From Hyphomonadaceae bacterium (lineage in GTDB: Bacteria; Pseudomonadota; Alphaproteobacteria; Caulobacterales; Maricaulaceae), in the NCBI GenBank assembly GCA_013001295.1, contig JABDMW010000006.1, positions 1 through 35,130 of the forward strand: a DNA stretch of 35,130 bases, in the 5' to 3' direction. The notes beneath the pieces were generated by a model, which saw only the letters and a program-made list of their open reading frames with translations, ran no database searches and was not told the DNA's origin. Below are positions 33,220 through 35,130 of this stretch, piece after piece. The translations under genes and the position numbers were made by a program. Position 1 is the stretch's first letter; each line of letters opens with the position of its first letter.

Positions 33220-33615
33220 TTATTTTTTGCCGCGTGACTGGTCGATACCGCGGCCTGTGACGCGTTCTGCGATACGGGCTGATTTACCGCGACGCTCACG
33301 CAGGTAATAAAGCTTCGCGCGTCGAACCTTACCCTTACGCTTGATGATGATCTCTTCAACGAGTGGAGAGTAAACCGGGAAGACCCGCTCTACGCCTTCA
33401 CCGTAAGAAATCTTACGCACAGTGAAGCTCTCATTGAGGCCCTTGCCTGAACGGGCGATACACACGCCTTCAAACGCCTGCAGACGCTCCCGTGATCCCT
33501 CACGAATACGAACCTGTACGATCAGTGTATCACCGGCTGAGAAATCAGGGATGGTTTTGCCAGACTCGAGGAGGCGGGCTTCTTCTTTTTTGTTCAGTTT
33601 TTCGATCACATTCAT
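33220..33615 (-). CDS. rplS: 50S ribosomal protein L19
   Basis: L19 sits at the 30S-50S interface. The 131 residues start [20 protein letters not shown], and the core has [43 protein letters not shown] and [23 protein letters not shown] short basic extension beyond the usual length is common in alphaproteobacteria. ATG at 33615 has AAGGAG in the end of trmD, and only 4 bp separate the two genes, so they are co-transcribed. Confidence 0.97.
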
Positions 33616-33619
33616 GGTC

Positions 33620-34363
33620 TTACTCCTTTTTGCCTTCCCGGTGCTTTTCCCAAAGATCCGGTCGGCGCTTTCTTGTCACGTCTTCTGATTTCTCGCGTCG
33701 CCATCTCCCGATTGCGCCGTGATCACCAGATAATAATACATCCGGGATTTTTCGTCCTTCCCACTCCCGCGGCTTGGCGTAGAGCGGGTATTCCAAAAGC
33801 CCGTCTTCAAAACTCTCTTCAACGGTCGAAGCTTCATCACCCAGAACTCCGGGCAATAAGCGCACACACGCCTCGATTAAGGCCTGTCCCGCGACTTCTC
33901 CACCGGCGAGAACAAAATCCCCGATGGAAACCTCTTCCATTTCGCGCGCTTCGATGACCCTTTCATCAAGGCCTTCAAACGGCCCGCAAAACAAAACGAC
34001 CCCGGTGCCAGCCGCCAATTCCCGTACTCTTTTCTGAGTCAGGGGCGTCCCGCGCGGGGTTAAATATAAAAGCGGCCGCGTTTTACCATTATGGTCCCGC
34101 GCCACTGCGTCTATTGCTTTCGCACTCACATCCGGCTTTAGAACCATTCCAGGTCCGCCGCCAGCGGGAGTCTCATCAACAGTGCGGTGCTTATTACCGG
34201 AAAATTTGCGAATGTCTATAGCTTCAAGTGACCATTTTTCATCTTTTAATGCAGTTCCGATGATGGAAGCGCCCAAAACGCCCGGAAAAGCGTCCGGAAA
34301 CAGGGTCAAAACCGTGGCTTTCCACGGTGAACCGTCTGGAGAAATGTCAGAATTATGGGCCAT
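33620..34363 (-). CDS. trmD: tRNA (guanine37-N1)-methyltransferase
   Basis: TrmD methylates G37 of tRNAs reading CNN and some other codons, protecting the reading frame, with S-adenosylmethionine as donor. The 247 residues match. The SPOUT trefoil-knot motifs are [35 protein letters not shown] and [20 protein letters not shown]. The last third has the C-terminal domain with [20 protein letters not shown] at 34363 has no Shine-Dalgarno, but TATAAA lies 8 bases upstream, so a leaderless transcript is possible. It is followed by rplS. Confidence 0.96.
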
Positions 34364-34466: not shown

Positions 34467-34577
34467 AACAAAAAAGGCAGGGTCGCGAATTTAAGGGGGA
34501 GGAAACTCGACCCTGCCTTGGTTATGTAACGAGGATGGGGCGACCTCGCTATCTATGTCTCATGAGGGGAGGAGACA
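34467..34577 (-). ncRNA. Candidate anti-Shine-Dalgarno small RNA between rimM and trmD
   Basis: A roughly 110-nt minus-strand RNA is predicted, beginning about 7 bases after a -10-like box. Stem-loop 1 (34557-34576 region) has a TGTCTC/GAGACA stem and loop CTCCCCTCAT. Stem-loop 2 (34530-34548) has a GCGAGG/CCTCG-type stem and loop TCGCCCCAT. Stem-loop 3 (34474-34519) has a 12-bp stem (AAGGCAGGGTCG with CGACCCTGCCTT), then a CG bulge and five more pairs, and a 10-base loop CCTCCCCCTT, ending in TTTTTTG. Each loop exposes a C-rich sequence that can pair with ribosome-binding sites, as in known alphaproteobacterial C-rich-loop sRNAs. No protein frame is convincing here. Conservation is unchecked. 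Confidence 0.55.
34470..34519 (-). terminator. Intrinsic terminator ending the candidate sRNA (and rimM read-through)
   Basis: AAGGCAGGGTCG (34508-34519 on the minus strand) pairs with CGACCCTGCCTT (34474-34485) and six T follow. The long stem makes termination on the minus strand very likely, which would split rimM transcription from trmD. Confidence 0.82.
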
Positions 34578-34582
34578 ATTCC

Positions 34583-34611
34583 TTTAGACTAGATTCGACG
34601 CACACAAACAA
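34583..34611 (-). promoter_or_regulatory. Candidate promoter of the sRNA
   Basis: TTGTTT (34606-34611, minus strand) lies 17 bp before TCTAAA (34583-34588), which is 6-7 bases before the first stem-loop. The match to the housekeeping sigma consensus is moderate. Confidence 0.4.
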
Positions 34612-34664
34612 TAAAACTGGACGTGAGAAAAATGTGATCGGTTAATCACGGGTTTGTGAGCGCG

Positions 34665-35130
34665 CTAACGCGTATGGTTTGGGTCTTCGTCCGCTTCTTC
34701 AAAGAAGATCACGACGCGACCGCCCCTGATGTCGACTACCGGCACACCAATGCGGGAAAACGAGTGAAAGAAAGCTTTGATTTTTTCGCCCTGCTCGTCT
34801 TTACCACCGGCAATTTCCAGCACATCCCCGGCTCCGAAGTTTTGCACGGCTTTGATTAGACCCCAGACTTTCCCGTCTTCGGTTTCGGCACGCAGACCGA
34901 CCAGATCTTCATGGTAGAATTCATCCTCGTCAGGCTCCGGCATATCGGATCGGTAGACATAGAGTTTTGTCGATTTTAACGCTTCCGCTTGCTCACGGGT
35001 TTCGATTTCCTCACAATGCGCGGCAATGGCGTTCTTGACCATGCGTGATGATTTAACAGTCAGCAGGGTTTTGCCGTTTTTATCCTTGAGCGGACCATAG
35101 GTCAGACACGCCTTCGGATCCTCGGTGAAG
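34665..35130 (-). CDS. rimM: Ribosome maturation factor RimM, 5' end outside window
   Basis: RimM binds S19 and helps 30S maturation. The reading frame is open to the window edge. It shows FTEDPKACLTYGPLKDKNGK (RimM N-terminal domain), then HCEEIETREQAEALKSTKLYV, DEFYHEDLVGLRAET, VWGLIKAVQNFGAGDVLEI and a PRC-barrel-like end VVDIRGGRVVIFF. An internal ATG at 35042 is not the true start, since the conserved N-terminal domain continues upstream. It is normally followed by trmD; here 301 bp and a terminator lie between. Confidence 0.95.
   Translation of the reverse strand, partial: FTEDPKACLTYGPLKDKNGKTLLTVKSSRMVKNAIAAHCEEIETREQAEALKSTKLYVYRSDMPEPDEDEFYHEDLVGLRAETEDGKVWGLIKAVQNFGAGDVLEIAGGKDEQGEKIKAFFHSFSRIGVPVVDIRGGRVVIFFEEADEDPNHTR

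Follow-up and report, generated by a model that had tools for sequence, protein, structure and literature searches.

The window, meaning here the whole 35,130-nucleotide stretch of DNA that was analysed, is one entire contig and carries on its minus strand the genes rimM, trmD and rplS, whose products RimM, TrmD and L19 pass curated cut-offs, in keeping with the neighbours named by an earlier note on this DNA. The spacer from the rimM stop (34665) to the trmD start (34363) is 301 nt long and holds all three hairpins of the element described below. The features of the region are as follows.

34665–35129, minus strand: rimM, its 5' part lost at the edge of the contig (NCBIfam TIGR02273, 84.1 bits, cut-off 66.2)
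34634–34649, minus strand: palindrome GTGATTAACCGATCAC, then ATTTTT, about 60 nt before the sRNA (sequence)
34583–34611, minus strand: promoter-like pair TTGTTT (34611–34606) and TCTAAA (34588–34583), 7/12 matches, chance level
34470–34582, minus strand: probable sRNA gene, about 105–113 nt, with three stem-loops, the last an intrinsic terminator
34556–34577, minus strand: hairpin 1, 6-bp stem, loop CTCCCCTCAT (34571–34562), anti-Shine-Dalgarno-like (folding and sequence)
34527–34551, minus strand: hairpin 2, 8-bp stem, loop TCGCCCCAT (34543–34535), C-rich, not anti-Shine-Dalgarno-like (folding and sequence)
34474–34519, minus strand: hairpin 3 and terminator, 12-bp stem, loop TCCTCCCCCTTA (34503–34492) (folding and sequence)
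34470–34475, minus strand: terminator T-run, TTTTTT (sequence)
33620–34363, minus strand: trmD (NCBIfam NF000648, 285.9 bits, cut-off 220)
33220–33615, minus strand: rplS, encoding L19 (NCBIfam TIGR01024, 149.8 bits, cut-off 90.7)

Structure and rarity of the element

The 113 nt from 34582 to 34470 on the minus strand fold at −38.1 kcal/mol, compared with a mean of −22.6 kcal/mol for shuffled sequences (z −5.06), and none of 200 shuffles folds as low, which confirms the three consecutive minus-strand stem-loops with C-rich loops that had first been read from the letters. Loops 1, 2 and 3 are CUCCCCUCAU, UCGCCCCAU and UCCUCCCCCUUA, with the loop stretches CCUCCCCC and CUCCCC. The last stem had been described as a terminator of 12 plus 5 bp with a T-run; the 12-bp stem and the TTTTTT are there, but the inner helix has four pairs in the centroid structure and one in the minimum free energy (MFE) structure instead of five. 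Hairpin 3 is absent from the output of a terminator scan that permits loops of 3–8 nt only. When a longer minus-strand segment of 156 nt is folded, hairpins 1 and 2 give way to alternative pairings in the MFE structure (z −3.10). A plus-strand reading was rejected: its 156-nt fold has a similar z-score (−2.88) but is not followed by a terminal T-run. A 96-aa plus-strand open reading frame in the ORF list spans the element.

Three CCCC-loop hairpins within 125 nt occur once in the window, not at all in 400,000 strand-bases (200 kb, both strands) of other DNA from the same genome, and not at all in 30 Markov copies of the window (2.1 million strand-bases, with a single hairpin pair), under a rule that is post hoc because it was widened after its first version (loops up to 14 nt) had missed the window's own triple.

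The promoter-like pair 17 bp apart, to which the earlier note had drawn attention, does not rise above chance, as each strand carries about 13 N17 pairs of 7/12 quality per kb, and no pair reaches 9/12 between 34350 and 34760. CATATA or TATATA elements, present upstream of many other copies of the family described below, are missing upstream of the window copy. The palindrome GTGATTAACCGATCAC, whose surroundings (34618–34668) fold at −5.3 kcal/mol (z −0.58), may serve to terminate rimM weakly or as an operator of the LysR type.

Viewed in isolation, the locus might be taken for a cis-acting terminator or attenuator only, in which the hairpin ends rimM transcription, trmD has its own start and the C-rich loops play no role in trans. 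A 12-bp stem followed by six T residues is indeed a strong terminator between co-directional genes, and the spacer holds no credible promoter. A terminator, however, can do without a set of three hairpins and without C-rich loops, the triple is unique in the scanned DNA, and termination fails to explain why similar loops and a similar layout recur at unrelated loci on different stems; we consider this explanation improbable.

Relation to known small RNA families

The best Rfam match of the window is ar14 (RF02344), with 24.8 bits and E 0.0054 in 231 bases over the full length, compared with a gathering score of 58.8. CcsR1 (RF02791) scores 14.6 bits with a gathering score of 65.3, and two further matches, PreQ1 (15.1 bits, cut-off 39) and SorY (14.2 bits, cut-off 111), were rejected. 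The comparison with CcsR and alpha-r families that the earlier note had drawn is borne out to the extent that ar14 ranks first, and falls short in that both scores are below their cut-offs. AbcR1 and AbcR2 constitute alpha-r15, for which Rfam holds a model, ar15; it is not among the nine Rfam matches of the window up to E 10.

The alpha-r14 RNAs, represented by NfeR1, resemble the element in having three hairpins, C-rich loops, variable stems and a terminal intrinsic terminator. Their length is given as 115–123 nt (PMC10746234, PMC8844928), and by definition the motif CCUCCUCCC recurs unchanged in each of their three unpaired regions (PMC10746234). The window loops are not three identical copies of CCUCCUCCC, and because this identity is lacking and the ar14 cut-off is missed, the window element is to be regarded as a variant. 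AbcR1 and AbcR2 of Sinorhizobium are reported to carry two different C-rich seeds, CUCCUCCC and UUCCCCUC (PMC8844928), and the window element likewise has different C-rich seeds; unlike AbcR, it lies at rimM–trmD instead of lsrB, and its terminator loop holds one of the seeds. With the CcsR1–4 or cuckoo RNAs of Rhodobacter it shares CCUCC-type loops, and another candidate in the same genome follows an hsp20 gene, a further likeness to CcsR. The CcsRs are described as linked to a DUF1127 gene and processed from the ccaF1 operon transcript (PMC10253847), whereas the immediate neighbours here are rimM and trmD. Because these tested defining features fail, the element is not filed as ar14, AbcR or CcsR.

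A similar short sequence is found in alpha-R8, whose members SisA–D/MmgR are described as multi-copy anti-Shine-Dalgarno sRNAs in Caulobacter (PMC12559287). Their core 10-mer, UUUCCUCCCU, resembles UUUCCUCCCC in loop 3, with nine of ten letters agreeing. In the published description this core is single-stranded, downstream of a weak hairpin and usually beside an FGase (N-formylglutamate amidohydrolase) gene, with no terminator loop involved (PMC12559287). The near-identical 10-mer of the window sits inside the terminator loop of a different architecture, the upstream gene is rimM, and RF00519 (mmgR) is absent from the Rfam matches up to E 10. Membership in alpha-R8 is hardly credible. Instead, the element probably represents a diverged copy, specific to its lineage, of an anti-Shine-Dalgarno sRNA family resembling alpha-r14 and AbcR.

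With ar14, sub-threshold matches (E ≤ 0.5) were obtained in 45 of 136 genomes of the window's family, compared with one of 14 control genomes. The cut-off is passed in none of the 136 family genomes and none of 240 genomes of the class, so that annotation by the ar14 cut-off would miss this branch. A whole-genome ar14 scan of 14 genomes of the genus matched none of them, the window's own included.

Related copies and their addresses

A covariance model built from the window alone (R1) matched five of 137 genomes of the family at E ≤ 1, its own genome included. Its best matches elsewhere, L063 (E 0.055, 20.7 bits) and L064 (E 0.119, 19.9 bits), are terminators with the loop TCCTCCCCCTT(A/G) as in the window, on different stems and with C-rich hairpins ahead; their scores, little higher than the 19.1 bits of the element's own opposite strand, are weak on their own. 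L064 has a LysR gene on one side and a dps-like gene on the other, which is the commonest address of the family. Applied to 32 loci, most of them fetched by ar14, R1 gave 12 matches at E ≤ 0.0052, the window included, and the R1 and ar14 coordinates nearly coincide at L073, L080, L082 and L086. In this step an alignment of 19 matches (A2) was reduced (A3) by removing seven rows above E 0.0052, among them the window's plus-strand match, which the cut was chosen to exclude.

The motif TCCTCCCCCTT by itself occurs in at least 89 of 136 genomes, above its reversed control. Among 34 distinct places in the fetched loci, five look like terminator loops by eye (the window, L063, L064, L108 and L122) and a strict script rule flagged one, L108, and because so few qualify the motif by itself was given no weight. 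At least 13, 11 and 13 copies are found in genomes G081, G125 and G095, respectively; in G095, contigs C16, C149 and C198 carry pairs of the motif on opposite strands, 125 bases from each other, which resemble a repeated element.

A second model, R2, made from 12 rows with the window among them, had matches (E ≤ 0.05) in 51 of the 136 family genomes. It was used to align 30 matches in 29 loci (A4); 11 of these 30 rows had also been R2 training rows, and the window was left out. In this alignment 25 of 26 pairs change on both sides and 88.0% of cells are paired, compared with 8–15 pairs and 26–45% paired cells in slid controls, with the caveat that alignments fitted to a model lean towards its structure. 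The sequence TCCTCCCC is present in 22 of the 30 terminator loops and in 22 of the 30 hairpin-2 loops, and the remaining eight terminator loops are other C-rich forms. A third model, R3, built from these 30 rows without the window, scores 34580–34467 on the minus strand at 70.8 bits (E 1.2e-13), though not fully independently, the R2 alignment having held the window as one of its 12 rows and the scans being biased to this layout. The window copy ranks first among the scored places of its genome, which cover 150 of 293 candidates; the runner-up, at 25.9 bits, is 45 bits lower and is itself a C-rich-loop candidate. Across the order, R3 has matches with E ≤ 0.01 in 57 of 299 genomes, representing 20 of 54 genera and including 22 genomes outside the window's family. 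The covariance search proposed in the earlier note thus finds stems that covary and C-rich loops that are conserved, in relatives and at other loci. As judged by sequence comparison, a large family of anti-Shine-Dalgarno-type sRNAs exists at other loci in the window's family and order.

The position between rimM and trmD is not part of this conservation. The spacer, compared by blastn with 61 genomes, matched its own genome and nothing in the 60 others; in the 14 genomes of the genus at E ≤ 10, the matches listed outside its own locus extend over 14–24 nt only. In G012, a nearest relative with rimM beside trmD (TrmD 80% identical), the gap between the RimM match and TrmD is about 55 nt and lacks the element; in G013 (TrmD 81% identical) the fetched flank contains no RimM match. 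At 48 other trmD loci, some of them duplicating one another, R1 did not find the element, and its sole weak match there (L038) is situated downstream of trmD. For the genus, this comparison covers the stretch ahead of trmD in eight of the 13 other genomes (L003–L010), TrmD matches in the remaining five being absent, partial or unfetched. RimM was found by tblastn in the flank of 22 of the 48 relatives' trmD loci (L003–L049 and L051), sometimes several hundred bases off (L012, L021). The rimM–trmD junction seems to vary, unless RimM has diverged too far or lies outside the flank. A literature search for an sRNA in the rimM–trmD spacer returned no title dealing with the site.

The element's address is therefore not conserved. 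Judged by the site alone, the finding would fall, and the conservation of stems and loops that the earlier note had looked for is met with only at other loci. Since no copy was found at rimM–trmD in the relatives examined, the coupling to ribosome synthesis through rimM, trmD and rplS that had been proposed is without comparative support; members of the family usually lie beside LysR and dps-like genes.

This isolation, with a high-scoring match at this place in its own genome only among 14 genomes of the genus, could also mark a decaying extra copy of the family, an RNA pseudogene that has lost loop 2 as a seed and has no working promoter, and loop 2 is indeed not anti-Shine-Dalgarno-like and no promoter is apparent. 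The three stems are nevertheless intact, the terminator is strong, and the R3 score of 70.8 bits compares with 25.9 and 23.3 bits for its two sister copies in this genome. Decay appears quite unlikely, less likely than termination in cis.

Among the 29 loci of A4, a particular LysR gene is present in 20, a dps-like gene in 23 and at least one of them in 24 of the fetched flanks; Dps models match the dps-like genes below their cut-offs. The window copy, between rimM and trmD, departs from this commonest arrangement of lysR, sRNA and dps. Its own genome holds a sister candidate (L173, G000:C9:62455–62556) after trxB and a LysR gene, with orthologs (L164, L167, L169, L172) that bring the number to five of 14 genomes of the genus. 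Across these five, TTCCTCCCCGAA is invariant in the L173-type copies. In the trxB–lysR sister copies ACAGTTCCTCCCCGAATAGTA is likewise invariant, and upstream of them an element containing GCATA is conserved, which in L173 reads ATGCATTTTTGCATA; a shared ORF behind them is PAS/histidine kinase-like by eye. Another C-rich-loop candidate (L171, G000:C14:6229–6345) lies at the end of an hsp20 gene, with relatives L162, L165 and L166, making four of 14 genomes of the genus. These candidates begin at the hsp20 end or at most about 50 nt from it, the hsp20 gene being ibpA-like but below the cut-off, and L171 is possibly a heat-shock 3'UTR-derived anti-Shine-Dalgarno sRNA. The two sister copies of the window's genome score low with R3 (23.3 and 25.9 bits, E 0.147 and 0.041), and it is their conservation across genomes that suggests they belong here.

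The LysR proteins at L173 (501–1406) and L064 (416–1357) have as their best solved relative 9HH1; the LysR of the sister copy scores 286 bits, compared with 118 for the next structure. 9HH1 is LsrB of Agrobacterium, and trxB–lsrB operons are described throughout Rhizobiales, to which a 2025 paper calls LsrB unique (PMC11975290). On the basis of score and gene order, we infer probable orthology of these LysR proteins with LsrB. In Sinorhizobium, AbcR1 and AbcR2 adjoin lsrB (PMC8844928), and LsrB is reported to activate AbcR1 and NfeR1 (PMC10746234); the position of L173 after trxB and the LsrB-like gene recalls that of AbcR.

Loop pairing and a proposed function

The pairing potential of the loops was surveyed over 193 ORFs from the window and 200 kb of DNA of the same genome. 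For loop 1, the share pairing at or below −8 kcal/mol is 0.337 in the 40 nt before ATG and 0.181 in coding sequence; for loop 3 the shares are 0.316 and 0.171, and for the 16S tail, taken as a comparison, 0.301 and 0.176 (193 ORFs in each case). This contrast between upstream and coding regions is due in part to any Shine-Dalgarno-like G-richness. Loop 2 does not favour upstream regions (0.420 compared with 0.487 in coding sequence, 193 ORFs), and the average pairing of loop 1 is no better than that of its own shuffles (−6.37 compared with −6.91). At least 6 nt complementary to loop 3 are present at positions −25 to −3 of 18 ORFs, compared with five in the coding control; at 7 nt the numbers are two and two, and at 8 nt one and none. 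The proposal that the C-rich loops act as anti-Shine-Dalgarno seeds thus finds agreement in the upstream preference of loops 1 and 3, qualified for loop 1 by its shuffles, and does not extend to loop 2.

For NfeR1 (alpha-r14) and AbcR1/2 of Sinorhizobium, C-rich seeds are described as pairing at translation start regions and silencing the mRNAs (PMC10746234, PMC8844928). By analogy, the minus strand from 34582 to 34470 would encode a trans-acting sRNA of roughly 105–113 nt, terminated by its own intrinsic terminator, and this gene would be a lineage-specific, relocated copy of the multi-copy anti-Shine-Dalgarno sRNA family of its family and order. The stems would keep the C-rich loops open, and the terminator loop UCCUCCCCCUU together with the first loop CUCCCCUCAU would pair with GGGGAGG-type ribosome-binding sites of several mRNAs, whose translation would be blocked. 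The genome has an hfq gene; we infer that the element is transcribed as a discrete RNA, silences targets and uses Hfq, and it could instead be cut out of rimM read-through.

The structure of the element, its rarity, its family relation, the conservation of loops and covariation of stems in relatives, and the non-conserved address are established here. Covariation within the family, the retention of C-rich loops and the first rank of ar14 among Rfam matches, albeit below its cut-off, make an anti-Shine-Dalgarno RNA, as originally put forward, the best explanation. We consider it likely that 34582–34470 on the minus strand is a trans-acting sRNA of this kind, a lineage-specific relocated copy of a multi-copy family that blocks ribosome-binding sites.

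In alphaproteobacteria, anti-Shine-Dalgarno sRNAs control nutrient uptake, metabolism and stress responses. They are described from Sinorhizobium, Rhodobacter and Caulobacter (PMC10746234, PMC8844928, PMC10253847, PMC12559287). In the window's order, 57 of 299 genomes give matches to the diverged branch recognized here. As a tentative and rather speculative extension, the module of trxB, LsrB and an anti-Shine-Dalgarno sRNA, described from Rhizobiales, may be older and wider, and in the window's branch it may have given rise to a multi-copy sRNA family missed by current models; copies would settle behind stress or ribosome genes, such as the hsp20 3' end and rimM–trmD, and borrow the input of the host operon, placing one set of anti-Shine-Dalgarno seeds under several signals, here including rimM transcription. 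The sister copies beside the LsrB-like gene suggest a connection with AbcR regulation and make it testable how these sRNAs arose and spread.
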